NCBI GenBank assembly: GCA_032358255.1
Contig: JAULBX010022187.1
Location: 62,001-126,000 of the forward strand
Direction: 5' to 3'
From: Heterotrichella gracilis
Taxonomy: Eukaryota; Sar; Xanthophyceae; Tribonematales; Xanthonemataceae
DNA: 64,000 nt
The position numbers and the translations under genes were made by a program. Positions within the stretch are counted from its first letter, which is position 1. Each line of letters begins with the position of its first letter. The notes below the pieces were generated by a model. That model searched no databases and was not told where the DNA came from. It saw only the letters and a program-made list of their open reading frames with translations. Positions 28,293-55,330 of the stretch are shown here, one piece after another.

Positions 28293-30402
28293 ATGGCCCC
28301 CACCTCCATGGCCTCCCTTGCCACCACAGCCACAGTGGCCCTGCTGTGCGCACTGTGCTGCACTCCTCCAGGCTGGGCGCAGCCAATAAGTGCGGCCACA
28401 CACCCTCCCCTTCAGCCTTCCTGGTTACCCTCCTCTGCACTGTGGCGCATGACCTATCCATGCCCAATAGGTGCAGCTTCATGCCCTTCCCTGCAACCTA
28501 GGTCCTTACGGTCCCACAAACCCTAGCTGTTTAGGGTTAGGTTATATGCTTGACCCTAAACCAATAGGTGCAGCTCCATGCCCTCCCCTGCAACCTAGCT
28601 AGCTATAGCTCCTTACGGTCCCTCGAACCCTAGCTGTTTAGGGTTTAGGGTTAGGTTTGACCCTAAACCAAAACCCTAATCCTCGGTGCTAAGTTCAGTA
28701 CCCTCCCCTGTCACCTACAAATCGTTGCATGATGATCACCCTCTTTCTGTTCACCTAGCTGCCTTGAAAGGTGATGCAAGTCACGCCATTACACCACGCG
28801 CATGAACCCCAACACAGCACGATATATCTATGCTGGCGCATGTGCCACATGCAACATCACCCACTTGTACTCCTGGATGCCACACATGCCACCTGGCATC
28901 ACCTACACGAGTAAATCCTGAACCATGTCATCTCTCCCTTGGTGCAGACCCAGGGACAGGGCTCTCCATTGGTGCCCTGCACATCCCCAAGCCCACTGAC
29001 CAGGCCGCAGCAACACCCGGTGCTGCCCCCGCCCCTGCTCCCAGCCAGGTGTGCATAGGATACGCATGGCATGGCCTTCTCACAGGTGTTGCAACAGATA
29101 CTGAAGGATGACACGTGTGGGATGTAGTATGCACGTATATTCCATATTCACAGCCACATTCATATTGGCGCAGACTCTGGCAGGGTTTACCGGGCACTTA
29201 TACGGTGTTTGCCTCATGCACATTTAAGGACGTTTCCTCGCTGGATTCCTCTGTCAGATGGAACATCCTTGAGAGTTTTGGTAAAATGGCCTGTTCAGTT
29301 GGATAAACATCGCTTCTTAGGGCAATGAGAAACATGTAGCGGGCCATGCGTTTACATGCTGCACACTCTCCATTGCACTCACTCATCCTTCCAACAAATC
29401 AACCAATACCTCGGTCACTCACTGTGCCACAATGCTTTTGCAGGCTGGCCCCATTGCCCCGCTGCCAGCCAACACCACCGGCGCCAATGTCACCGAGCCT
29501 GTCGCCAACGCCACTGCCCCCGCACCCGCACGCAACACCACCATCACCCCCCCTCCAAAAATCATCCCAAACCCCGCCACCCCCACCAACACCACACCAA
29601 AAGCCCCGGCGCCTGGACCAGAGGCCGCCAACGCAACCTCCCCACCACCCGCCCCCACTGTCAACACCACCTCCCCACCCGTCACCCCCATTGTCATCCC
29701 AGGCAACCTCAGCTTCAGCCCACCCGCAGCCCCCACCCCCCCGCCCCCCTCCCGCTCCACCGGGATGATCCCGCCTGTGCAATCCACCCCCGGGGGATCC
29801 AACAGTGATGTTGCCCAGGTGCTGGATGCCATCACCTCCACGTGTGCAGACTACTGCGGCGGAGCTGCTGGCGCCTCCCAGTGCTGCAGGTAGGGTGGAA
29901 AGAAAGGAAAGGCATAAACGAAACCAAAAGCCACAGGGCGGCATAATGTGCAACAACGCATAGCAGACAGGAGAGCCACCTCTACTAGTTCATGTTTTGC
30001 CAGTTCTTCTTTTTTTCGCGCTTGTTCCAGAGGCTCCCTAGTCATAATTTAATGTACAGGCTCCCTCGTCACAATTTAATGTACATTGGTATGAACTGAA
30101 ATTTCCACAATACTCCTGATGAGTATTGTGGAAATTTAAAATAAACTCAATTGACCATTATTTTGTTATGCTGCAGTGCCGCGATCGCCGCTGCGGCAGA
30201 CAGCGCGGACGGCTGCTTGAGAGCATTCTTCTCAGCCCAGGGCCAGTGTAGCTGCCTGTATGACCAGAGCTTGATGTACGTTGGGGTGGTGAGCGCCTGC
30301 CCTGGGGGCGTGGTGTGCGACCAGTGCCTGGAATGCTGCCTGTACGGGGTGACCTACTCGGTCAACGACTTCCCCACATGCAGCGTCAGCGAGCTGTGTT
30401 GA
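28293..30402 (+). CDS. Secreted 14-cysteine protein A with N-glycosylation-rich linker, 289 aa
   Basis: Founder-type member of the cysteine-rich family that fills 40-49 kb. Exons: 28293..28389, 28948..29048, 29444..29889, 30177..30402; phases agree, 290 codons with TGA. Residues 1-30 are a signal peptide (MAPTSMASLATTATVALLC... ending GWAQ). A Pro/Ala linker follows, much longer than in the paralogues, with eight N-x-S/T sequons (NTT, NVT, NAT, NTT, NTT, NAT, NTT, NLS), so it is probably heavily glycosylated. The C-terminal domain has the family pattern: C-x3-C-x8-CC, a single C, C-x-C followed by LYDQS, ACPGG, then C-x2-C-x2-CC-LYGVT and two final Cys. Unlike the paralogues, an extra intron splits the domain right after the first CC pair, and the linker is split by another. 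Function unknown; a cell-wall or extracellular structural or binding role is an inference from secretion and disulfides. Confidence 0.85.
28379..28725 (+). repeat. Tandem copies of exon 1 end in intron 1 of gene A
   Basis: The exon 1/donor region (CCAATAAGTGCGG...CACCCTCCCCT) recurs as CCAATAGGTGCAGC...TGCCCTCCCCTGCAACCTAG near 28464 and 28561 and more weakly near 28685. Units of about 98-110 bp are separated by TTTAGGGTTAGG runs. Confidence 0.7.
30030..30137 (+). repeat. Direct repeat and perfect hairpin in intron 3 of gene A
   Basis: A 27-bp tandem repeat (AGGCTCCCTxGTCAxAATTTAATGTAC twice, 30030-30083) is followed by a 16-bp perfect inverted repeat, arms 30099-30114 and 30122-30137 (AAATTTCCACAATACT) with a 7-nt loop. 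It may be a MITE remnant or a local RNA hairpin. Confidence 0.7.
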
Positions 30403-36005: not shown

Positions 36006-38730
36006 ATGGCAACCCCACCACCCCCACAGCAACAACCTGCAGCCAACACCCAGCCAGCCCCGGCACTCAGTGCCCCACCAGCCACCTCCACCCACCCTCC
36101 ACCCCCCGGCGCCAGCCCCACCCTGTCCCTCACAGACCTCCTGGCACCCGCGGGGGGAAACACAGCTGGAGGGGTGGTCCATGCACCACCAGCACCAGCA
36201 CCACCACCGGGTTGTGAGGTCGCCTCCCCACCATCCCCCACCGGCGACGCAGCAGCCTCTGATGGGGGCCCGGGTGGCGGTGCGGTGGGTGGGGGGTTCC
36301 CCTCCTATCCCGTAGGCAACGAGGGTACCTCCATTGTGGAAGCCGCTGCTGCGGTGGTGGCGGAAGGGGAGGGGCTCGAATGGCCAAGTGTGGGGGTGGA
36401 GCAAGGGGATGTGGATATGCTAGTGGAGGAGGACCAGGAGGAAGACGCAGATGAGGTGTGATGCAACCCAACTGCAGTACCCTACTTAGTTAGTCAGTTA
36501 GTTGCATTCCAGCAATACAGCCAAATTAGCAGTCAGTCTTGCACATGCGGCGCCACGCAGCTCTATCCCGGCACTGTTTGAACCATCTATTGATCCCACG
36601 CGACTTGAGGTACCTCCTGCTGGAGTAGGTCAGCCCATGTGGCCCTTGGCTAACCTCCCCCTTTTGCCCAGTCTACCCTACCCAACTGCAGGACCCTATC
36701 CATGCATAATAGGCGTACACTCTGGTACTCTGATAGCAACCAATGCTGAGGTCATTGGGCCGCAGTCCAACACCAATGCCGCCTCACCACCATGAGGCAT
36801 TTTAGCTTGGTGAGCACTTAGACTTAAATTTATTGGCCCCAAGAAACCTTATAAACTGCATGCTGCCCCAGGTGCCCCCCACCTGTCCTGCCTTTGTACA
36901 CAACCTGTTTTGCTTGTTTGCCTTTCCCGTTCACTTGCTTTCGCATACCGTGGTCAGCGTTTTTTCATAATGTAAACTATATCGCTGTCACCTCCAAGCC
37001 CCTCTCCCCTTGCCCCCACCCATATCCTGCCCCCCCTGCAGGCTGGCCCCGACCCTTCCTCCACCGCTGCCTGCCTGGCTGTGGACTGGGAGGAGGTGGC
37101 GGGGCTGAGGAAGGAGATTGTGCGGGGGGTGGAGGGCATGAAGGCTTTCACGGCCCCGGGGGCAGACAAGCAGGAGCAGAACTCGCTGCGCATGGTCCTG
37201 TATTACCTGAGGTGGGTGGTTGGGAAGATGGTAGTATGGGGCTCAGAACCCTTCTGGTTGCGCGTCCTCGTTGTGCGCACGCCATCGCCCAATGAGGATG
37301 AATGGATGCTGCTGCATGTTTGATGCTGCAGAATATATCTGATCTGCAGTGGATGGGCCGCATGGCGTGGGCAACATAGGTCATGGAGCGTTTCTGCTTG
37401 AAAAACCTTGATCTTTTCCATATAAAACTCTAATATATTTTACATCGATTAAAATAGTAGACTGGTATGTGTGGCACGAGGTGTTGGCCAGCTGTCCACA
37501 CAGGTTCTCAACTGGTAAACTGGGCTTGCCATGTATCCACACAGCGCCTTGGCAAGGTCATGGGGGGTCACAGGGTGGCAGTCACGGCAAGAATAAATAA
37601 CTAAAATAAATAAATATTATGCAGCCTCTCCTTTGCCAGGTCACGGGGGTCACGGGGTGGCAGTCACGGCAAGAATAAATAACTATGATTAATTTGAAAA
37701 TTTAATAGATATTATGCAGCCTCTCCTCTGCCAGGTCGCGCGCGTCACAGGTTGTCAGTCATGGCACCACTTGCTTGGCAGCAAATCATGGATATGTTGC
37801 CATATCTATTGCCATGACCTGTGTCTCTTGCGGTAACCACCTTGGAACTTCACCCCCCTGCGGTGCCTCAATGTGCCCTCCCCGTAGATTTAGGGCTTAG
37901 GGTTTAGGGTACCCTAAACCCTAAAACAGTTGTTGTGCCACAATGGACCCCAGTGGCAGTACCCCACACATGCACGCCGCCCTGACTCTCAACCCCCCTT
38001 GTGACCCTCCCAAACACAATCATACCCGTGTTCTACTCAGCACATGGTTACAAACTGTAATCCATCCCCCCTTTTAGGCTGGTGTGCGTCCTCCCGCAGG
38101 CACTACCCCCTTCCCCCCGCCGCCCTTGTCCGCCTGCAGCTGCTCCCCCAGGTGGTGGCGCTGGCCGCGCTGCACCCCGCGCTGCAAGTTAGGCACCAAG
38201 CGCAGGCGCTGCTGCAGGTGGAGCCCTGGGCGGGGCTCAACAGGGCCGCGGCAGCAGGCGAGGTGGGTGCAGGATGGTTTGGGAGAGATCCCCGGTGTTG
38301 TTGGATGGTGGATGGCGGATGGTGGCCGGGGGTTTGTTGTCAACTGTTGGCAGTGCATCATGTCGCTAACGTACAGACACTTGGGCACTGGTGCCAACCA
38401 ATTTGCAGGTCGTGGTACTGTCAGGCAAAAATCGTTCACAAAATACAATAAGCTGAATTAGTTCTCAGTTGGTAGGAGTGCTTGGCTACGCACAGGATTG
38501 GGGTGGAATGCCATGCGTGACGGGGTGCTGTTTCACGCTTCCATCCAAGCCCCTTGGATTACGCCAGCCTCATGTGCAGTGTGGTGCATGCGTGGTGGGG
38601 ACTAGGGGGCCTTTCATCGAGGATTTGGGCTTGACACTGGGTGTGGCTTGTGCAGGCGGGTGGCGGCGAGGGCGCGGCTGGCAATGGCACCAAGGCGCCT
38701 GGCAGGGGGAGGCCAAGGCGGGTCAGCTGA
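36006..38730 (+). CDS. TFIIS-N/LEDGF-like domain protein, 285 aa
   Basis: Exons 36006..36455, 37042..37211, 38100..38262, 38656..38730; phases agree, 286 codons with TGA. Residues 1-150 are low-complexity Pro/Ala/Gly turning acidic (DMLVEEDQEEDADE), typical of nuclear proteins. Residues about 165-255 resemble the helical TFIIS N-terminal (LW/TND) domain: VDWEEVAGLRKEI, NSLRMVLYYLRHYPLP, LLPQVVALAALHP, then VRHQAQALLQ, i.e. the VR-x-x-A-x-x-LL signature after a HP. The C-terminus is Gly/Arg-rich (GRGRPRRVS), like an RGG/AT-hook-like basic tail. Such domains dock onto transcription elongation factors; that role here is inferred. An alternative acceptor at 38078 in exon 3 gives an early stop and is rejected. 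Intron 1 holds a dispersed repeat also found at 54.1 kb, and intron 2 holds telomere-like and 100-bp repeats. Confidence 0.78.
36486..36628 (+). repeat. Dispersed ~145-bp repeat, copy 1
   Basis: From GTTAGTTGCATTCC through TTAGCAGTCAGTCTTGCACA and TGCGGCGCCACGCAGCTC to CTTGAGGTACCTCCTGCTGG. It matches 54083-54228 with roughly one change per 8-10 bases. It lies in intron 1 of the TFIIS-N gene, starting 30 bp after the donor. Confidence 0.8.
37545..37770 (+). repeat. ~100-bp tandem repeat, 2.3 units
   Basis: Units contain GGTCACGGGGTGGCAGTCAC, GGCAAGAATAAATAACTA and TATTATGCAGCCTCTCCT. They start near 37550, 37638 and 37733, in intron 2 of the TFIIS-N gene. Confidence 0.8.
37886..37926. repeat. 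Head-to-head telomere-like palindrome
   Basis: TTTAGGG-type repeats run into CCCTAAA-type repeats across a central GGGTACCC; the arms GGGTTTAGGGTA / TACCCTAAACCC are inverted repeats. Confidence 0.85.
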
Positions 38731-39999: not shown

Positions 40000-41107
40000 T
40001 CAACAAAAATCGCCGGCCACGCATCTGGGCCAAGCATTGCTCAGCCTGGTAACCCCGTACAGGCAGCAGTGCTGGCAGATGGCACACGCGGCACCCCTTG
40101 AGCTAGGGCACGCATCCACCACCGTGGCATCCGCCACGCTCTGCTGGTACAGGCAACCGCACTGGTCTGGGATAGAGGAGAAATATTTCTTGCAGTCAGT
40201 GAGGACATCCACTGCAACGTTGAGTGTGGCACTGCAGCACTGGGGCGTGCCTGCGCCGCTGCATGACTCGGCGCAATCGGCGATGATGCTGTCAAAGAGG
40301 GGGTTTGCGGGGACGCCTTCAGGAATTGGCTGCACAGGCGGGGTGGGGACAGCCTGCAGAGCATGCGCAGCGGTTTAGAGTGTTGAATGTGCTGCGAGAG
40401 GCACCTGTTTAGGGTTTAGGGTTTAAGCTTTAGTGCGTTGGATGTGCTGGAAGAGGCAGCTGTTTAGGGTTTAGCGTATTGGATGTGCTGCGAGAGGCAC
40501 CTGATTAGGGTTTAGGGTTTAGTTCGTTGAATGCGCTGGAAGAGGCACCTGTTAAGGGTTTAGGGTTTAGGGTTTAGCGTGTTAGATGTGCTGTGAGGAG
40601 CACCTGATTAGGGTTTAGGGTGTAGCGTGTTGGATGTGCTGGGAGAGGCACCTGATTAGGGTTCAGGGTTTAGGGTTTAGTGTGTTGAATGTGCTGCGAG
40701 AAGCACCTGATTAGGGTTTAGGGTATATGGTTCAGTTTGTTGAATGTGCTGCGAGAGGCATCTGGAAATGGCTACACGTTGCTCAATGGCCACAAAGCAG
40801 TGATCCGCCCTGTGGAACCTCCCACATGCAATCCAGTGAACCCTAAAGGGTTTTCCTCGAGGTGTTTCTTGTGATCATTGAAGCCCGCACAGACGCAGTG
40901 GTGAGAGGATAACAGCAAATTGTTGACTGTCCGGGTGTCACAAGTTGTGGGTAAGCCATGCCACATGTCTATCATGCGCACCTGGGCGGGGGCAGGGGCA
41001 GGGGCTGCATCTGCTGGCTGCGCCACGCCAAGGGGTGCACAGCACAGCGCGCACAGCAGGGCCAGTGTGGCAGCGGCGACAAGGGGAGCCATGGAGGCGG
41101 GAGCCAT
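40000..41107 (-). CDS. Secreted 14-cysteine protein B (short form), 159 aa
   Basis: Two exons, 41107..40982 and 40353..40000, phase 0, 160 codons with TGA. Exon 1 is the family leader: MAPASMAPLVAAATLALLC... signal peptide with cleavage expected near VAQP, then an Ala/Pro stretch ending in Gln just before the conserved donor CAG|GTGCGCATG. Exon 2 begins AVPTPPVQPIPEG and holds the whole domain: C-x3-C-x8-CC, D-C-KK, C-x-C-LYQQS, ACPSS, C-x2-C-x2-CC-LYGVT, C and a terminal C; 14 Cys. An in-frame upstream ATG at 41203 exists, but the paralogues support the MAPAS start. It is divergent from gene C. Intact. Confidence 0.87.
40374..40760 (-). repeat. Telomere-like minisatellite in intron of gene B
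   Basis: About eight units of 45-55 bp, each GTGTTGAATGTGCTGCGAGA then GGCACCTGATTAGGGTTTAG. The core also occurs once in gene F's intron near 47350, so the array probably grew from ancestral intron sequence. Confidence 0.9.
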
Positions 41108-42247
41108 GGGGAGGGGAACACTGGGATGATGAGGGGAGGGAGGGGTCCTGAGGTGGTGCGTGTGTGTGTGTGGAAGGGGGTTCACAACCTGCAGCAGCAG
41201 CATGGGCCAGTTGGTGGCACACCAGGTAGCCCATGGCAGCAGGGTGGGGATGAAGTGCTCCTACAGAACCACTATCGAGATATCGTACCGTAATGGTTTG
41301 AGATTCCCTGTGCACACTGAATAGTGGAGGCTCCCGGGAAATGGGAACTTGATTGAAAGCCGAGCATATAATGGGTTCCAACATGGGGTAGGACGGTGGG
41401 AGGGATGGGAAGGTGGGGGCCAGGGTTGAAAGAATTTCTCGCTACTGCAAAACAGCTATCACAAGCGTACAGTGCCGCAGTGAGCCAGTGATCCACTGCC
41501 ATACCTGGCGCCGGGAGTGGCTGTGGACGGAAACTGCTCCTGATACAAGGACGTGCACAGATACAGTGCGTTCGAGTAGTCGCACCGATCAGGGTCCGAT
41601 GCATGCATACACAAGACTTGGTTCAACTTAGTTCAACCCAGAAGCCCTGCGATCCTGGGTGGGGTCGAAGGGCTTATCGCAGCAACCCAGCCCAGAACCC
41701 AGTATTACTAGCTCGTGTATGACTTCTGCTTTCCGTCTTGGCCACTTATATCTATTGCAGACACATTGAAATATGCATGCGCTATTTTCATCCCCCCTCT
41801 GTACCGTACCTGCACTGCTTGAAGCAATACATCACTTGGTGTGCAGCTTGTGTGTAAGCAGCCTATACAGTGATATATCGCAGCAGGTGGATAAACCTGA
41901 CGAATTCCTGGCGACAGCCGGCAAGCAAGCGGTTTCACTTTCAAGTTTGGAGAGGTCGGTAAGATTACATAAGGTAGCCAGAGTCCTGTGCAATGCATGC
42001 CATTTGATCCACCAAAACTTAAATTAAATTGATGTGCTGTCATCTGTCACCGTAGCATGCACTGCAGTGCCAACTGGTATAGTTGGGTAGTGGTTCTATA
42101 AGGACACATTTCAATCCTTGTGCCACACCCTGCTACCATGTGCTTCCAACTAGCCCCATGCTGCGGCAAGGTAGTGACTCCCCTTCCACAAACCACCTCA
42201 GAACCCTCCCTCCCCTGAGGCTCATCATGCCATTGGGATTCCTTCCT
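41108..42247. other. Divergent promoter region B/C
   Basis: Shared 1.1-kb upstream region. The conserved GCTGCAGGTnGTGA element occurs facing both ways: 41181-41210 (minus) and 42149-42180 (plus, as CTGCGGCAAGGTAGTGACT). Both are preceded by similar CACCCTGCTxCCATG text. Confidence 0.55.
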
Positions 42248-43100
42248 ATGGCTCCCACCGACTCCATGGCTCCCCTTGTTGCCCCTGCCACACTGGCCCT
42301 GGTATGGGTGCTGTGCTGTGCACCCCTTGGCTTGGCGCAGCCAGCAGGTGCAGCACCCGCCTCCGACCCCACCCAGGTGCGCATGGTAGGCATGTGGCAT
42401 GGTCTACGCACAAGAATAACAATTACAGCTAACATCTAACGGACATAGGCATGGATGTAAAGTATTAAAAATGTTCATAATTAATACTTTACATCCAATG
42501 GCATCATGCATGATGCCCATGTCCGTCGACTAAGAATGAACACTGATGCACTTGAAATACATGTATCATAGCAGCACTGTTTCCTAGCCTTGCCCTCCTG
42601 CCCCGGGTGCCTCTCGCATCCTACACTCAACCGCTGCGCTGGCTGTGCAGGCTGCCATCATCCCGCCTACAGCCACCCGGCAGGTGCAAAACTCGCCACC
42701 GCCGCCAGAGAATCCTATGTTCCTCAAGGTCATTGACGCATGTGCTGGCCAATGCAGCGGAGCCGCATCTCCGTGCTGCAACATTGCACTCACTGCAGTC
42801 ATGGATTCTTCATTCCAAGGTGCGACAGGCATGCGGTCGACTGGCATACCTCTCTACTGCAAGCTGCTGGAGGAGCGAGGTATTCTAAAATCTGTGGCAG
42901 ACCTGTGCACCTGTCTGTATGCCACAGTCATCAGCCCCACAGTGGTGAATGCGTGCCCAGCTGCTGTTGACCAGGGTCTGCATGGGATGTGTGACCCCTG
43001 CCTGGTCTGTTGCCTGGTTGAGGCCACCCACACTGACGTCTTAAGCAACACCGATATCATTGGCAACGGGTGCCAATTCAGCGATTTCAAGATCTGCTGA
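42248..43100 (+). CDS. Secreted 14-cysteine protein C (long-insert form), 192 aa
   Basis: Two exons, 42248..42376 and 42651..43100, phase 0, 193 codons with TGA. Exon 1 leader: MAPTDSMAPLVAPATLALV... to PASDPTQ before CAG|GTGCGCATGG. Exon 2: AAIIPPTATRQVQ linker, then C-x3-C-x7-CC. A long insert (MRSTGIPLYCKLLEERGILK) stands where short forms have DCKK, followed by C-x-C-LYAT, NACPAAV, a loop, C-x2-C-x2-CC, and two terminal Cys; 14 in all. This long insert groups it with gene E. The single intron carries a ~90-bp inverted repeat. Intact. Confidence 0.87.
42439..42526. repeat. ~88-bp inverted repeat (MITE-like) in intron of gene C
   Basis: Outer arms ACGGACATAGGCAT (42439-42452) and ATGCCCATGTCCGT (42513-42526). 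Inner perfect arms GGATGTAAAGTATTA (42453-42467) and TAATACTTTACATCC (42482-42496). A 16-bp palindromic GCATCATGCATGATGC sits in the right arm. Confidence 0.8.
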
Positions 43101-43400
43101 ACGCGCCTTGGGGTAGTTGCAGTTAGGGTCACAGTTGCCAGTTAGATGGTATTATCTCCCATCATTGGCATACTTTTACACACAACATTGTCGCATGTGT
43201 GAGGCAGGGCATTTACTGTCAGCAGACACTGCGGCACTGTTGTAAGCAACAATACAAGTCATGACTGGCAGCTTTACATCCTTTTACACTGCCAATTGTG
43301 ACGGTAACTGCACGCAAACATGGATTTACCTTTGTCTATGGCCTTGCAGCTGGCCTATGCATGGTTCAACTGTGAATTTGACCATAAATCCCCAAATGGA

Positions 43401-44189
43401 TCAACACAGATCGTTGACATCACATTTTGGCCATGCGTCGTTGATGGTTGTCGCCCCGTGCAGGCAGCATGCCAGGCAGGAATCGCATGCCCCAGGGCAC
43501 GCATTTGTCACCCTTGCATCCGCCATGCTCTGCTGGTACAGGCAGCTGCACTGGTCTGGGGTGGAGGAGGCAGACTTCTTGCAGCCAGCGACAACATCCA
43601 GCGCAGTATTGATCGTGGCGGTGCAGCACTGGGTTGGGTCATCGCCGCACGCATCATGACACCCGAAGATGATTTTTAGATACACAAGATTCTCGGGTGC
43701 GGCATCGGGGTTGCTGGGTTGCACTGGCCGGGGGGGAGTAGCCTGCAAAGGGGGTTGAGAGTGGTGGATGTACTGCTGCAGGCTGCTACATGGCAGCCCA
43801 ATATTGCATGCAATGCTTGTATTCCAGCCTCTGCTTGCATTCATGGTTATCGCTTTTAGTAATGCTCATCTCCATGAACCATGGGGTATGTTTCGGCACA
43901 GGCCATCCAGTGTGTGCCATTGCCTGTACCCGTGTCCACGCATTTGACTGATGTCCAAGTATCTACCCTGGTAACTGTTCATACCCCTGTCCATATTCAT
44001 GTGATCATCCTGAGAGCACATGCTCTGTGCATACACCATCTCACATGCATCCATGCGCACCTGGGTGGGGGCAGGGGCGGGGGGCCCACCTGCTGACTGT
44101 GCTGAGCCAAGGGGTGCACAGCACAGCGCGCATAGCAGGGCCACTGTGGCAACAGCGGCAAGGGGAGCCATGGAGGTAGTGGGGGCCAT
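43401..44189 (-). CDS. Secreted 14-cysteine protein D (short form), 156 aa
   Basis: Two exons, 44189..44061 and 43742..43401, phase 0, 157 codons with TGA. Leader MAPTTSMAPLAAVATVALLC... to PAPTQ, donor CAG|GTGCGCATGG. Exon 2: ATPPRPVQPSNPDAAPEN, then C-x3-C-x7-CC, G-C-KK, C-x-C-LYQQS, NACPGA, C-x2-C-x2-CC-LHGAT, and two final Cys; 14 in all. Closest to gene B. Convergent with C (300 bp apart) and divergent from E. Intact. Confidence 0.87.
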
Positions 44190-45561
44190 GGGGAGAGGGC
44201 CTCTGGGGTGATGAGGGGAAGGGGAGGGTCAGGTGGCACAGGGGAGGTCACTACCTGCAGCAGCATGGGCAAGGTTGGTGGTAGGCCTTGGCAGCCATAT
44301 GCTCCCATTGCACTTCAAGAATGTTTGACCATGCTCATGGTCATCTGGCACAGGAAAACCTGGCAGTTAGGCTTAGGGTTTCTTCAAGGTCTGCTGCATT
44401 GTTTGCCAATCACTGCCACAATGCTATACAACTTTGGCAAGCCTATCTAGGTAAGTCTGGGCGCGCAACGTGAATAAAATTGCAAGTTGCAAACTACATG
44501 TTGGGAAGCTGAAACCTACAATCAGTCTGTAGGACATGAACTGCATGCACAGAGGTTGCCATGGGTTGCAGCTACAGTTGCCTGGCATGGCATGACTTGC
44601 AGTAACACAAAACCAATCTCCCAGCACTGCACTGATTGGCAGCAGGAAACTCTTCCTTCATACGAGGGGGCATATTAACTCAATACTGTTGACAGTACCT
44701 TGCTAGGGTGTAGTCTCACCCAATCGTAAGATAATACAATGTGGTGTATCTGGTGAACCTACAGTTGTATGAAGCTAGCTCAGCCGAGCCACTATGTCTT
44801 GAGCGCCACACCCCGAGTCCAGAATCCAGTAGAGAAGGCAAAGCAGACTGTGACAGCTTCTTCGAGGCCATTTGAGTCAGCCACACCCATAACGCATGCT
44901 GGTTTTGAACTTGAATCAACCATATGTTCAAGGCACCTGGTCAAAGGCTTCTGCCTGGGGTGCACATCAGCGAGAAGCTGGTCCTGGGTAATGCATTTAT
45001 GCCGTGAAAGCACCATGCGTTAAGAGCACACTGATAGGGTGTTATTTTCACAGCACGTAATGAGCAACTTTGTGCCTGATTGTATCATCAGAGTCTGCAC
45101 AAATACCTGGCAGGAATGGTGCTCTCAGTCTGTCAGGATAAAGAGCGCCACCATAACCGGGTCCTGGGAATGATCTTTTGAAGTAAGCGTTGTTTGCTGA
45201 AAGGGGTGAGTGTGAGGGTAGCCCACTGAAGCACGTACGATGAAAACGCAGGATGGCGTGCTCTGCGTGCAAACGTTTGCATTGCTAAAACGTGGCGGGC
45301 ACATAAAATTTATAAACTGATACAAATGTATCCCCACCCCTGTCCCAGCCAGTGTAGTAGAGGTGGCCATCCAATTTCAGGCAGTGCCCAGGTTGTGGCA
45401 CTGAGTGACACCATTTTATACACGTTAGGGCACACATTTTCATAGTGCAGGACCCATGCATCAAAACTCCTCTCACCAACCGGCCCATGCTCATGCAGAT
45501 TGTGATTACTCCCCTCCCACCGTAAACCCCTTCCCCCTCCTCAACCCAGGGCGCCCTCCCC
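44190..45561. other. Divergent promoter region D/E
   Basis: Conserved upstream element at 44247-44272 (minus) and 45481-45508 (plus). A segment at 44930-44962 (GCACCTGGTCAAAGGCTTCT then GCCTGGG) recurs at 48669-48700 between F and G, evidence that these spacers are copies of each other. Confidence 0.6.
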
Positions 45562-46382
45562 ATGGCCCCCACCGCCTCCGTGGCTCCCATTGCTGCTTCT
45601 GCCGCACTGGCGCTGGTGTGCGTGCTGAGCTGTGCACCCCTTGGCATGGCGCAGTCAGCAGGTGCTTCCCCTGCTCTCGCCCAGGTGCGCATTGCATATG
45701 TTTGATTTTGGTATAGCCTAACAGATGAAGAACCCAATGATAATCTGACAAACATGCGCGTGTGAGAAAATAAAAAGGGGCGCAGGTACTGAAATATGCC
45801 TACATTAGACGCATGCATGCACAGGCAAAACCCTTAATGAAGGGTTCAGTGAGAACCCTGTCCAGTTCACTACCTGTGGCGATTGACAAGCGTGTTGCGA
45901 CATGTTAATCACATTCACCAACACTCTAAAATGCTGCTGTCACTTTCCAGGGTGCCATCACATCACCCTCCGCCATCCCGCCCACGCAAACCCTGCCACC
46001 ACCGCCACAGCAAGGCAGTCCTCTGAATGTTCAGATCACACAGAGATGCGCTAACCAATGCAGCGGGGCCGCATCCCAGTGCTGCAATGCCTCACTCACC
46101 TTTGCTTCGGGAGCAATGATTGACCTTGGCAGGGTATATGGTCCGTAACAATTGCTCGACTACTGCGCAGGCAGAGCACCCATCTTCTACCCAGCAGTGC
46201 CCAGTGTGGCAGAATCATGCGAGTATCTGTATCAGGAGGTTGGACACCATGTTGGTGATGCCTGCCCGGCGGTACTTACTACCGGGAAATGCGACCCGTG
46301 CTTTGCCAGCTGCCTGGCTGAGGGCACCCATGTAAATGCCTTAGGTTCAGTCGCATGTGAGGTTGGGGTTTTTGGTTGTTGA
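45562..46382 (+). pseudogene. Cysteine-rich gene E (long-insert form), in-frame stop
   Basis: Exons 45562..45684 and 45951..46382, phase 0. Leader MAPTASVAPIAASAALALV... to SPALAQ, donor CAG|GTGCGCATTG. Exon 2: GAITSPSAIPPTQTLPPPP, then C-x3-C-x7-CC, the long insert, and the C-terminal half. A TAA at 46146-46148 interrupts the insert while the frame stays open on both sides to the terminal Cys and TGA at 46380. So it is either a young pseudogene or read through. Two cysteines are replaced: the second of C-x-C (Tyr) and the first of the late CC pair (Ser), leaving 12. Confidence 0.75.
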
Positions 46383-47000
46383 ATTCAACTTGCAAGGGTT
46401 TATTGGAAGAAAGTGTTGAACTAAACTTGGAACAACAGATTGAACTGCATTTCCAGTAGCAGCTGACAGTCCAGGGGAATTTCCAGCCGCCATCGGCTAC
46501 ACGTGCCATGCATGCCCTTGTGCGCACATTTGAGGCCAAACTTTAATTCGTTAAAAAATATTTCACTGCTGCAAATCCCCTAAGATTGAATGCCTAAGAT
46601 TAAAACTTGTAATGCATGCATACGTAAGGGCTCTAGCTTCACATATAGCCCTTGCCCTGCCGCCAAATGCGACAATACCTTCACTTCTGTCTAGGCAGTC
46701 TGCCGGCCACGACGATTTCTCATGTGCTTAAGTCCTATAACCCAATTTCCCGTTGAGGGCTGGCAAATGCCGCTAATGATGTTGAAGTGGCTGCAGGTCT
46801 CATTAGATCTTCAAGAGCAGTGTAAGTAACCACGCTAGTTGGTTAAAATATGCATTCTAAAACATACCTAAAAGGTTGTGCTGTCTCAAATGCGTGTCCT
46901 TTGAGGGCTCCTATGGCATAGGCAGGAAGTCCATGACCTGAAAGAACATTTTGGACTCCTGCCTGCTGTGGTGGTAATATTCATGGAACTGCCCAAAGGT
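46383..47000. other. Spacer between convergent E and F
   Basis: AT-rich; no gene or clear repeat seen. Presumed 3' UTRs of both neighbours. Confidence 0.5.
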
Positions 47001-48063
47001 TTAACATCTAGGCAGACTGTTTGGCTCACACCTAAACCCGACAATGGCATAGAGGCAGCATTTCAGGCAGGGGTTACATGCGCCACCCCCAGGGCATGCA
47101 CCCGCCACCCTTGCATTAGCCAAGCTCTGCCTGTAAACGCAGCTGCACTGGCTCGAAAAGAATATGTCCTTATTTTTGCAGTCATCCAATGACCTCCTCC
47201 ACTACGTAGAATGTGGCGTTGCAGCATTGGGACGCGCCGCTGCATAAGTCGGCGCACTCAGCTGTGATTATGTCAGACAAGGCCTGGGAGTCTGACTGCG
47301 AGGGTGAGATGGCGAGGCCTCTGAGGGCAGTCTGCAAAGCCAGCGCAGCGGTGGAGTGCGTTGGATGTGCTGCGGTGGGCATGATGCAATGGCCACAAGT
47401 TAGTGCACTATAATGCTTCCTCATCAGGCTATCCTTTGTGACTCGTCAAGGAATTCCTCTGTGGTTAGTGACACCCTTGCCCATGCAATGGCAAAGGTGA
47501 TTGATAGAAGCAGATCACCAAGGGGTGAGAGGGAAAGCCAGCAAGGCAAGGTTGTCGCGAACAAAATGCCATGCACATATTGCCAAGCTGCCAAGCCCCT
47601 TGCATTCACAATTCTGTTATCGAGTAATGTCCATGAGGTACAGGGTACTTAAACCTTATAGCACACGTCATTTATAGGCCATACAGTTGTATGCCATTGT
47701 CGGGTGCCATGCCAATGCTCAAGGTAAATTTTATCACGAAGGTAATATTCATGTGTAGAAAGAAAGGACATGCATAAAGGCAAGGTAAATATATTATAAA
47801 CGCAGGGTTCATTGTTAGCCATTTCCATGTCATCTTCCTGTTTCTATGTTTTTCAAAACAAATTCAACATTGAATTAACAAAGTAAATTCTGAGCAGGCT
47901 GCCCCAGCTGTACAGCATGGCATGTTGCATTGCGCACCTGGCTGGGACCTAAGGTGGGGGCTGCATCTGCTGGCTGCGCCACACCAAGGGTTGCAAAACA
48001 CAGCGCGCACAGTAGGGCCAGTGTGGCAGCGGTGGCAAGGGGAGACATGGTGGCGGGAGCCAT
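47001..48063 (-). pseudogene. Cysteine-rich gene F (short form), one frameshift
   Basis: Exons 48063..47938 and 47331..47001. Leader MAPATMSPLATAATLALLC... to LGPSQ with donor CAG|GTGCGCAATG; one leader Cys is replaced by Phe. Exon 2: TALRGLAISPSQSDSQA, then C-x3-C-x6-CC-NATFYVVEEVI. A one-base shift near 47187-47190 moves the frame, after which DDCKNKDIFFSSQCSCVYRQ, ACPGGGAC, C-x2-CC and two final Cys follow to TAA at 47001. All 14 Cys survive across the two frames, so the lesion is recent or a sequencing error. Confidence 0.75.
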
Positions 48064-49081
48064 GGAGAGGGGTGCGTTGGGGCTGAAGACGGGAGGGACG
48101 GGTCTGCCAGAAGTGAAGTGGCCGCGGGGGAGGTCACCACCTGCAGCAGCATGGTCCAGTTGATGGCCAACCTTGGCAGCCATATGCTCCACGCACGTTG
48201 TTTATCTTTCACCCTGCCCATGGTGGACGCTGACAGAGGTGTGTCAGCAAGTTTACTATTTTCTAACAAAGTGTGCAACCCTTAGGCTACTCAGTACTGA
48301 GTAATATTTGAATAGGCTATCTGCATGCGTACTACATACTATGACTATCATATTCCATAACTTATGCCTTAAAGGCATAATGGGGCTATCAGTAGTGTCC
48401 CATACCTAATGAGTGGCTGCAGGTAAATACTTGTTCCTGATGCACCACCAGCACAGGATGCTAGGGGTATCGCACCCACATGCGTTCACAGTGAGCAGTT
48501 TTCAGGAGGTGCATGAAAATGGGTGGGAAGGAGCTCTTAAGCGCAACAACATCCATTACGGGGGCCGATTTGGCCAGAGCACACAGCTATACTGCTTTCC
48601 GTCACAGCCACTGAATTGGCCATCATGCATGCCTGGCGGGCCCCAGCCGCTGACATGTGATACTTTCAATGCACCTGGTCAATGGCTTCTGCCTGGGATT
48701 TAGAGGCTGCGTGCAATCTGAAGTGCTTCAGATGGTACATGCCGTGGTACGCGAGTCTTGTTCGGAACAAATTCGGAACAAGATGCCGAATTCGTTGTGC
48801 TTGAACAATACTGTTTTAATCCTCTGCATAAACATGTTAGCCATGCATTTGCTTTCAAAGACCTCGGAAGTGTCTCTGCCTAGCATGTCACACCTCAAAA
48901 CCTGGCACGAACTGCAACAGTGAGCGTGTCACCCTGTTTACTCATAAGAGTCTCATGTAGACTCTGGTCCTGTGCCATCCCACTCAGCCAGCTGTGCTGC
49001 TGCAGCTAGTTTTGCTCCCACACCGTTTGGCCTGCGCCCTCTTACCCCTACCTCCCCTCTCATTCCAGTGTTCACCACCCC
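48064..49081. other. Divergent promoter region F/G
   Basis: Conserved upstream element at 48131-48160 (minus) and 48989-49015 (plus, degenerate). Shares the CACCTGGTCAATGGCTTCTG segment with the D/E spacer. Confidence 0.55.
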
Positions 49082-49207
49082 ATGGCTCCCGCCTCTATGT
49101 CTCCCCTGGGACCCACCGCCTTACTGGCCCTGGTGTGCGTGCTGTGCTGATCATCCCTTGGCATGGCGCAGCCAACAGGTGCAGCCTCCACTCCTATTCC
49201 CACCCAG
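49082..49207 (+). pseudogene. Orphan leader exon G of the cysteine-rich family
   Basis: MAPASMSPLGPTALLALVCVLC, then TGA at 49148-49150, then SSLGMAQPTGAASTPIPTQ before a conserved donor CAG|GTGCGCATGG. No matching cysteine-domain exon was found downstream to 50.4 kb, so the gene is a dead first exon. Confidence 0.7.
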
Positions 49208-50435: not shown

Positions 50436-51845
50436 TTAGTGTGAGATACTTCTACAGCCTGCCATGCCTGAGCTGCAATGAATAACCAACTTAACTACTT
50501 TATAATCTGCTGGTACTTTTTGGCACTCTGAAAACAATGTATGTAAATCCAAGCCTGTGAGGCACATGTGTGCATGTTGCCTCACCGTGCCGGTTGCAGT
50601 TGGCTTAACGGTGGCGCTGTGGTCAGAACCAACTGACATGGCAGCAACCTCAACCAGCCTGGGCTGGCTAGGATCCGGAGCAAATGTAGCGGGGCAGTCT
50701 GCAGAAGGAATCTCCCAGACACGGCTGGCGTCATCATTGCCATCCCTCCAGTTGAAAGTCACAGAGTGGCCACAGCAGATGGTGATGGGCCCGTGGGTGA
50801 TGGGCGCAGAGTTGTCCATGTTCCAGTCCACTGTCTGATCGGTGTTCAGGCATTCTGCACAGCAAGATCCAAATAAACAAATTAGGCAAATGTTTACGGT
50901 GAATTTCATTATTGATGCCACATGTAATACGCTAAGTAATATGATACCAGCAGGTGGCTTACCTTGATCAATAGGGGCTTACACTCTGCTACTACTTTGC
51001 TGGTATTGACTGACATGTTGCTTTATGTAACACTGGCTATTATTTTCTTTGGCAATGCGCCTGGTAAGGGCCTTGCCGGCTGTAGATAAGAGGATCATCT
51101 TAAATGGCCCAGCAATGCTGTGGCGCTCATGCAAAAGCACAAGCTGTGGCGCGCATGAATAATCATTACATTCTTCTGAGATGGACATCACGGCAGTTTT
51201 CTACAAGGGCTATACATGCTTGCTATTCTATGCAGACTGCCGTCATTCCCTCAGCCCTAAACCCTAAATATTTTTCCGTTTCTGCCACCACTCACCCTGG
51301 CCAGGAGCAGGGGCAGGAGCTGCAGCTCTGATGAACTGAAGGTTTGGGTTGGGGAAGTTGGGGAACTGGGGGGCCAAGCCTGCAGTCAAGGGAGGGATGT
51401 CACAATCCCTGAACCAGCCGTGCAGATGATGGTGTGGATGCATATGCGGCATCTGGATGTGCGGCCGCATGCGCGTCGCTGATGCCACTGACCCATGTGA
51501 CATATGCATTGCAGGAGTACGGTGCATTTGCACTTACTCTTTGGCCTAAACAGAAATATGCACAATGTCTAATATGCAGGCGGATTGTGCTTGGGGACTA
51601 AGTAGAGCAGGTTTGCATCTGTTGCTGATGTGCCAATTAATTGCAAACTCTCATGGGCAGGTGTTCCCTCTCAGTAAACCTGCACAGGGGAGGGTGGTGT
51701 AATGGACCACAGGGGAGGGTTTGGGGCTGCACGCACCTACTATCTGCGTGGAGCCAAGGGGTGCACAGCACAGTGCGCAGAGCAGGGCCAGTGTGCCAGC
51801 GCCGCTGGCAGCTGCGGTAAGGCGAGTTACTGAGGCGGTAGCCAT
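50436..51845 (-). CDS. Secreted cupredoxin-like protein with cysteine-family leader (H), 203 aa
   Basis: Exons 51845..51737, 51379..51296, 50854..50436; both introns phase 1 and the total divides by three (204 codons). Exon 1 reads MATASVTRLTAAASGAGTLA then LLCALCCAPLGSTQ, clearly the leader of the neighbouring family. Exon 2 is a Pro/Asn/Ala linker ending AAAPAPAPGQ. Exon 3 is a plastocyanin-like fold: WNMDNSAPITHG, CCGHSVTFNWRDGNDDASRVWEI, then SATVKPTATGTVR and a late CLTG...H and HCSSGM. This resembles phytocyanins, but the classical His/Cys/His/Met copper set is not clearly complete, as in copper-less early-nodulin-like proteins. A possible donor at 50585 would cut the end off; I prefer the uninterrupted frame to the stop at 50436. 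A small base-count ambiguity near 51737 affects that exon edge by 1 nt. Confidence 0.68.
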
Positions 51846-54082: not shown

Positions 54083-54228
54083 AGTTAGTTTGTTAGCTAG
54101 TTAGTTAGTTACGTGCATTCCATCCAGATTAGCAGTCAGTCTTGCATATGCGGCGCCACGCAGCTCGTTTCTGGCACTGTTTGAACCACCTATTGATCCC
54201 ATGCAACTTGAGGTCCTGCTGGAGAAGG
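54083..54228 (+). repeat. Dispersed ~145-bp repeat, copy 2
   Basis: Matches 36486-36628, including TTAGCAGTCAGTCTTGCATA and GGCACTGTTTGAACCACCTA. Confidence 0.8.
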
Positions 54229-55330
54229 TAAACGCGCCTTGCTAGTGGGCACCTTGTATCACTCAGTACCTAGTAGGAGCTTTTCGACGCCCCTGCATGT
54301 GCATCTTCTGCAGTGGGCTCTCGATAAATGAGAACAGTCACCTTTATGTATCACGAGGCACTACAGTCCGCGAAACCGCGCGCGAGGAATAACGCGAGCC
54401 ACGCGAGCCAGAACAGGCTAGACCCAGAGTACAACCCGCATAACAACCTTATCACTGTTCTCTCGGGTATGAAACTAAGCGTACTGTATATGTGAGGTTT
54501 GGATAATTTCAAGCGAGAGCACTGGTCGACAGTGCAGGAACAGGTACTGCATGCACACATGAATCGGTGACAAATGCATGCATGCAATGTCGGCGGACAT
54601 GGAAGGCTTGTAGGAGAAACACGGGCCTTGTATCTTCCGTGTCCACACGCGTTACGCTAAAAATAGAGCTCAAGCAGTGGGGAGGCAAGCGTGACGACAC
54701 TCGTCCTGTATCGGGTTGCATCAATAGCTAGGTCGCATGTGAATGCACAAATTGAGTGCAGAATACTGCAAGCTTCCATATTTGCACTGCTTTTACGTTT
54801 GCGACAAAGTCTCCGAGCTTTAAAATATTCGCTGGGCACAAAATTTCTGTGCTCTTCGGAAATTCCCCAGCCGGTTTGAATTCTAGTGCCTTCCTGTTTT
54901 TTGGGCGCATCCTGTAAATGCTAGTCCTGTCACTTATGTCAATTGAGCTCTCGAGCGAGCGTGTAGTTACGCGTTGTGAACCGCCATTCCAGACGCAACA
55001 CAAGTATCTTGCAATCGCTTTGATGGGCGTTTTCAACTGAATTGCAAACGCATTGGGCATGGCATCACCGGGCATGGATTGCTTCCCGCCAAGTTGGAAC
55101 CACAACCACAGCCAGCCATCTGATTACTCTGTTGTGAACGCCGGATTTAACCTGAAGTAGTTGAAGGATAGCCCGGGTAGAGCCCGGGTTGGTGACTGGT
55201 TTCCGGGTCTCCTCCACAGTACTAACCTAGCTAATCTCTGCAGCAGCCTTCAGCAGCGGTTCAAGGTTAGTGGTTCAGCCTATTCAAACGCAGCGGTTTA
55301 GCAGTCTTCAGCCTTCAGCAGTGCTGCCCC

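Follow-up and report, generated by a model that had tools for sequence, protein, structure and literature searches.

A multigene family of putatively secreted 14-cysteine proteins in a probable chlorophyte genome, with a slowly changing signal exon and a divergent domain exon

Three described systems come closest to the genes analysed here. Green-algal nsLTPs were identified, in the portions of Huang et al. (2023; PMC9832785) drawn on here, by the eight-cysteine motif (8CM) C-Xn-C-Xn-CC-Xn-CXC-Xn-C-Xn-C with n of 8-50 (8-30 for the canonical spacing), a signal peptide and a size under 60 kDa; their genes number one or two in a genome, or eight in the case of Coccomyxa C-169, and their products include the acidic CrLTP1 (isoelectric point (pI) 5.53) and the basic CrLTP2 (pI 8.64). 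Hybrid proline-rich proteins (HyPRPs) carry the 8CM and are described, in the corresponding parts of PMC2216038, as apparently unique to seed plants. In conotoxin genes, according to the portion of PMC3862624 that reports exon divergence, Ds is 0.000-0.129 in exon 1 and 0.340-0.680 in exon 3. We analysed a window of 64,000 bases (bases 62001-126000 of contig C223, in a genome of 68.5 Mb and 903 contigs; positions below are those of the window), in which genes clustered between 40.0 and 49.2 kb, together with relatives elsewhere in the genome, may represent a multigene family of secreted acidic chlorophyte proteins. In this family, a leader and signal exon would have been held back while the exon for a linker and a domain of about 14 cysteines diverged, and the products could act in the wall or matrix; we consider the chances of this reading about even.

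The genes resemble the green-algal nsLTPs, in the features covered by those portions of PMC9832785, in having a putative signal peptide, many cysteines, a predicted helical build, a Pro-containing N-terminal extension and introns, in occurring in chlorophytes, and in being acidic as CrLTP1 is. They differ in having about six more cysteines and more than a dozen loci, and whereas size and signal exon would fit, the extended spacing was failed by 11 of the 12 rows of our domain alignment, the member on contig C330 (c330) being the one that passed (second exon only, cysteines of the signal excluded). With HyPRPs, as far as the text of PMC2216038 used here goes, they have in common a putative signal peptide, a Pro-rich stretch, a C-terminal Cys-rich domain, some clustered genes and low sequence conservation; in contrast to HyPRPs they carry about 14 cysteines, the canonical 8CM spacing is absent from all 12 rows, and no Pfam 8CM match was obtained for any of the 12 members. 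The likeness to conotoxin superfamilies concerns the mode of evolution only, namely an early signal exon with much lower nonsynonymous (dN) and synonymous (dS) divergence than the exon for the mature domain. Conotoxin introns, in the part of PMC3862624 concerned, are conserved within a superfamily and the mature exon is fast, whereas here the introns align no better than the 3' flanks and it is the signal exon that is slow.

Self-comparison of the window revealed repeats of two types. One, a 5' block some 130-300 bases long, is present in direct and inverted copies and on translation codes for a signal-peptide-like sequence ending at CAG/GTGCGC; the other, a more diverged domain block, begins after AG and has a Pro-rich start followed by 14 cysteines. 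Together with translation, this placed six genes or relics in the interval of 40.0-49.2 kb, on alternating strands (B-, C+, D-, E+, F-, G+), as an earlier note on this DNA had proposed; the 14-cysteine pattern given there was recovered as well, and the cluster members were found to have signal exons in common. All six have a signal-peptide exon and five have a second exon (Pro-rich linker and 14-Cys-type domain), and only B, C and D are intact, with 14 cysteines each. In gene B (minus strand), the signal-peptide coding part of the 5' exon (40982..41107, ending CAG/GTGCGC) is preceded upstream of the start codon by a leader (41108..41222) that is partly conserved among members and contains an internal splice-like TGCAG/GT, and the second exon lies at 40000..40353. 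The signal and second exons of gene C are at 42248..42376 and 42651..43100 (plus strand), and those of gene D at 44061..44189 and 43401..43742 (minus strand). The assignment of B, D and F to a short form of the domain, and of C and E to a form with a long insert, held. Pseudogene E (45562..45684 and 45951..46382, plus strand) has an in-frame TAA at 46146-46148 in its second exon and 12 remaining cysteines, its CxC reading CEY and one cysteine of the second CC pair being gone (it reads SC). Pseudogene F (47938..48063 and 47001..47331, minus strand) contains 14 cysteines when its pieces are combined, despite a frame change near 47188. Relic G consists of a signal-peptide exon alone (49082..49207, plus strand) with an internal TGA, and no domain exon was found downstream of it.

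For B, C and D the cysteine spacing reads C-x3-C-x6/7-CC-x13 (26 in C)-C-x10 (15)-C-x-C-x13/14-C-x3..11-C-x2-C-x2-CC-x13 (19)-C-x5 (7)-C. The twelve-row domain alignment (A2), in which one row is a partial domain, has the common frame C-x3-C-x5..7-CC-x13..15-C-x7..18-CxC-x14-C-x3..9-C-x2-C-x2-CC-x11..20-C-x5-C, from which C, c473d, c330, c353 and c183 deviate at one gap at least. Eight of the 11 complete rows have 14 cysteines, two have 15 (c473c and c330) and one has 12 (c183); the C353 row, which stops one codon short of the last cysteine in the alignment, was counted with that cysteine. The second-exon products are acidic in 10 of the 10 cases computed (pI 4.05-5.36), and their first 20 residues include 4-12 Pro (nine rows read in frame), gene A having a long Pro-rich linker. 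An AlphaFold2 model of the D domain (input of nine window rows) was all-helical with fair confidence (pLDDT 82.7, pTM 0.74).

Genome searches returned 16, 10 and 17 matches at E<=1 for protein D, protein C and the signal exon of B, respectively, several of which were second pieces of a gene or weak. Nine members were located off the window contig, on six contigs (four on C473, c473a-d, and one each on C640, C330, C594, C183 and C353), and A and H are further members inside the window. The eight off-contig members found through the domain all have an upstream signal exon, while the C353 member was found through its signal exon; the 17 signal-exon matches correspond to 15 loci with a family domain plus the relics G and H. 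Domain matches on C162, C897 and C603 were weak and were excluded from membership. A GT donor follows the signal exon in 15 of the 15 loci listed (GTGCGC, or GTACGC in c330 and c594), and in 12 of 14 loci the domain exon is directly preceded by AG, c473a and c473b having candidates only further upstream. Domain exons are open and keep the cysteine order in B, C, D, c473a-d, c330 and c594. The C640 member (L020:4795-5184, minus strand) has two in-frame TGA codons, one at the position of a CC-pair cysteine, and is most simply a pseudogene. A short intron within the leader was also considered (aligned donor GT in 14 of 17, acceptor AG in 13 of 17). One or the other of these splice signals is absent from each of E, F and G, but since C, H, c183 and c594 show a like loss it is not a mark of a pseudogene, and TGCAG/G at this place might alternatively serve as acceptor for a longer intron in the leader.

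The two exons have diverged to very different extents. Among 45 pairs from the ten genes with both exons, dS was higher in the domain exon in all 41 pairs for which it was defined (median 1.61, against 0.31 for the signal exon), the domain being saturated in the other four, and dN was lower in the signal exon in 45 of 45; median dN/dS was 0.47 for the domain and 0.77 for the signal exon. At identical residues the same codon was used in 835 of 1058 cases in the signal exon and 915 of 1577 in the domain exon, with the signal exon higher in 42 of the 45 pairs. Codon identity in the signal exon exceeded the expectation from its own codon usage (observed and expected values: Ala 0.81 and 0.31, Pro 0.74 and 0.47, Leu 0.86 and 0.37, Cys 0.77 and 0.51), while in the domain exon Pro (0.28 and 0.27) and Cys (0.71 and 0.68) were at saturation. 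Alignment beyond shuffled sequences (z>4) was found for the signal exon in all 45 pairs and for the leader in 26, and for the intron start, intron end, 3' flank and far 5' flank in 4, 2, 2 and 1 pairs, respectively; in this comparison c594 replaces c353, the intron anchor of c473d is about two bases off, and the intron-end segments of c473a and c473b are approximate, their domain starts being edges of BLAST matches. Leader and signal exon together make up the slow part, and the surrounding non-coding DNA hardly aligns.

In the reference libraries searched (Pfam, NCBIfam and the Protein Data Bank (PDB)), the statement of the earlier note that no described family has this cysteine pattern was borne out, and a Pfam match to the whole pattern was not found. 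None of the 12 members matched a relevant Pfam family, and matches at E<=1 were obtained for two only; FAM194 (E 0.041) and PBP_N (E 0.59), with one member each, were set aside as chance, as was a weak B3-domain match. No member of the 12 matched the CFEM domain (PF05730) at E<=1. NCBIfam gave no match for the five pieces searched, and a sequence profile search of the PDB gave nothing convincing (best E 1.6 and 2). Protein D alone, searched against viral contigs (8 pattern matches) and a prokaryote genome collection (43), gave no confirmed relative, the window's own genome being the one eukaryote genome covered, and literature searches on green algae listed no fitting family, the nearest being the nsLTPs of PMC9832785. 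The 14-Cys family is unrecognised by every reference library used. The number of loci (more than a dozen), the nearly constant 14-Cys frame and the lack of a library match make it a clear target for work on structure and function in chlorophytes.

As the sequence reads, the leader and a signal-peptide-like stretch lie on one exon and, after an intron, a Pro/Ala-rich linker and a compact domain of about 14 cysteines on the second. The mature protein would be extracellular and its linker located in the wall or matrix. The domain could form a helical core with up to seven disulfides and either bind a partner that is small or hydrophobic or just reinforce the wall, as thought for HyPRPs and LTPs. 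Because of the signal-like start, the Pro-rich linker and the helical disulfide core, the protein most probably acts outside the cell, in the wall or matrix, and possibly binds a ligand, as far as can be judged from sequence and models. The family would have grown by duplication and decayed by point lesions, the domain exon diverging while the leader and signal exon were restrained, either through constraint at the nucleotide level or because copies exchanged sequence. Several observations weigh against this interpretation. Ala and Leu codons in the domain exon are below saturation (0.51 against an expected 0.27, and 0.77 against 0.34), signal exons of about 40 codons make dS of a single pair noisy, and the 45 pairs, coming from 10 genes, are non-independent. 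In addition, the model of the C domain was poor (pLDDT 50.3), a structure search found no fold match among PDB or viral models, and cleavage of the signal as well as secretion were assessed by visual inspection rather than with a predictor.

A doubtful alternative is that the family is a much-altered offshoot of the eight-cysteine (nsLTP/HyPRP) superfamily, a lipid-binding helical bundle that has acquired extra disulfides. In the 8CM, the cysteines pair C1-C6, C2-C3, C4-C7 and C5-C8. With relaxed spacing, 10 of the 11 complete rows include the order C..C..CC..CxC..C..C, the N-terminal part is Pro-rich as in HyPRPs, and the only PDB chain retrieved with the 12-row profile was an nsLTP, though at E 2. 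A trimmed profile scored 19.3 over 31 columns around the CxC against five nsLTP fragments, above all 60 shuffles that kept the Cys columns (best 15.6) and all 60 full shuffles (best 16.8), but the hhalign probability was 9.6%, and the untrimmed run (1.9%, score 15.4, 19 columns) did no better than the best shuffles. A 51-residue nsLTP fragment used as a control matched PF00234 at 9.7e-7, in the Pfam test that all members failed. LTPs form a four- to five-helix bundle around a lipid cavity; the fold search with the all-helical D model matched neither an LTP nor any other fold. As the spacing rules fail and the Pfam models do not match, the 14-Cys family was not filed as LTP, although it may work in an LTP-like manner.

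A diversifying arsenal of secreted interaction proteins (for defence, symbiosis, or recognition of grazers or mates), with domains driven apart by selection as in conotoxins, seems rather unlikely. The many copies and relics would suit it, as would a conserved signal exon next to a divergent Cys-rich one, with dS and dN gradients like those of conotoxins in the tabulated part of PMC3862624 (Table 5). The median dN/dS of the domain nevertheless does not indicate positive selection, which saturation can mask, and the products are acidic, whereas typical antimicrobial peptides are cationic. The introns hardly align, which makes the signal exon a slow outlier instead of the domain a fast one. That the cluster is a dying, non-functional remnant, its low signal divergence reflecting biased codon use and short length, is improbable: E, F, G and H are damaged or incomplete and c640 carries its two stop codons, but the nine domain exons listed above remain open with their cysteine order, median domain dN/dS is below 1, and codon identity in the signal exon is above the prediction from its own usage.

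Under the preferred reading, of a secreted family with a restrained signal exon, the poor alignment of the introns speaks more for constraint on, or exchange of, the signal exon than for hypermutation in the domain exon. Nucleotide-level constraint (on splicing, message export or translation) or exchange between copies could be responsible. The tidy borders of the slow block lean towards constraint, whereas a signal dN/dS not far from one and intron bases held in common lean towards exchange. B, C, D and G have part of the first 20-30 intron bases in common, and past the donor B and C agree better (z 6.9) than B and D (z 4.0), though the domains of B and D are closer; in the comparison of intron starts over 105 pairs, six were above z 4, of which c640-c594 apparently results from telomere-type repeats. 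It is tentatively possible that loci exchange the leader-plus-signal exon as a cassette, or have it overwritten, even across contigs (by gene conversion or exon capture), while ancient linker-plus-domain exons diverge freely. Hints of this, besides the closer agreement of the B and C introns, are that the conserved block ends near splice-like borders, that its synonymous sites are unsaturated, and that the relics G and H are made up of nothing but the cassette. If true, such a cassette would be a plant-lineage counterpart of the modular diversification of conotoxins. The exon-specific divergence itself offers a second, unrelated case for the question of why signal-exon DNA is so conserved in diversifying secreted families.

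As to the history of the cluster, non-Cys identity is 45% for B-D, 37% for B-F, 36% for B-A, 35% for C-E and 25% for B-C; the nearest neighbour of B is D and that of F is B, while C and E are mutual best matches. The nearness of B-D, B-F and C-E fits a split into a minus type and a plus type. Maximum-likelihood trees were built from domain sets of 15, 9 and 6 rows and from signal-exon DNA (17 rows). None of the three domain trees had a starred fork bearing on the grouping of B, C, D, E and F; in the best trees C was placed with E in the 9-row (58/55) and 6-row (50/1) sets and with c473d in the 15-row set (81/74), the latter protein tree having end branches of up to 10 changes per column and being unused for claims. 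The grouping of B with C, or of D with E, as sisters, which the earlier note had named as contradicting its scheme, was neither rejected nor established, with p-AU (approximately unbiased test) of 0.117, 0.419 and 0.35 for B+C and 0.261, 0.176 and 0.308 for D+E in the 15-, 9- and 6-row sets, respectively; B+D+F was likewise not rejected in the two sets tested (0.489 and 0.245). The only starred fork in the signal-exon tree was c473a+c473b; C+E had 84/67, and B+C (p 0.18) and B+D+F (p 0.376) were not rejected. Of the proposed three tandem copies of a divergent pair, the nearest pairs thus came out as predicted, while the trees leave the forks open and half of the genes are broken. Because the family is genome-wide and the domains are old, as the median domain dS indicates, the cluster is not a set of three fresh copies, although its origin by tandem duplication of one divergent pair is plausible and, from the sequence, a fair guess. 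The proposed period of about 3.4-3.6 kb agrees with the distances between domain starts of the minus genes (3389 and 3597), but signal-exon distances differ (start to start, 3079 and 3877 on the minus strand and 3314 and 3517 on the plus strand), so that a single clean period is approximate. The predicted segment common to the D/E and F/G spacers is present, with 33 bases 94% identical (44927-44959 and 48665-48697).

Chlorophyll a/b-binding protein matches were found in 43 stretches of the genome; together with a CP26 fragment that is closest to green-algal chains, they support a chlorophyte as the probable host. No PsaA/PsaB match was found in the assembly. The PDB chains nearest to this fragment were 7pi0, 9is4 and 6kac (311-306 bits), followed by 8bd3 (273). 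Of these, 7pi0, 6kac and 8bd3 come from Dunaliella, Chlamydomonas and a Chlorella, respectively, and judged from CP26 alone a chlorophycean host appears likelier.

Outside the cluster, relic H is a signal-peptide exon alone (51711..51845, minus strand). Gene A (plus strand) has a signal exon core at 28293..28397, an exon at 29444..29887 that begins after TTTTGCAG and encodes an extended linker rich in Pro and Asn-Thr together with the first four cysteines of the domain, and the remainder of the 14-Cys domain at 30169..30402, past an intron at the first CC pair. Its 5' exon looks split, with about 600 bases between the core (28293-28397) and an exon-end-like stretch with a donor (29007-29084). 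The intron of gene C contains a small foldback element (42440-42525) with a self-complementary core (42452-42497, 87%), resembling a miniature transposable element. Telomere-type repeats (TTTAGGG) in degenerate form occur within the intron of gene B (40372-40764) and, by eye, also in the introns of c640 and c594; genome-wide, the exact triple TTTAGGG occurs 406 times in forward and 428 times in reverse orientation, against 0 in a reversed control. A separate open frame of 161 amino acids (50436-50921, minus strand) has cysteines and a signal-like start of its own, with no Pfam family above the cut-off. A repeat of 145 bases, 83% identical, flanks the cluster region on both sides (36486-36630 and 54093-54229).

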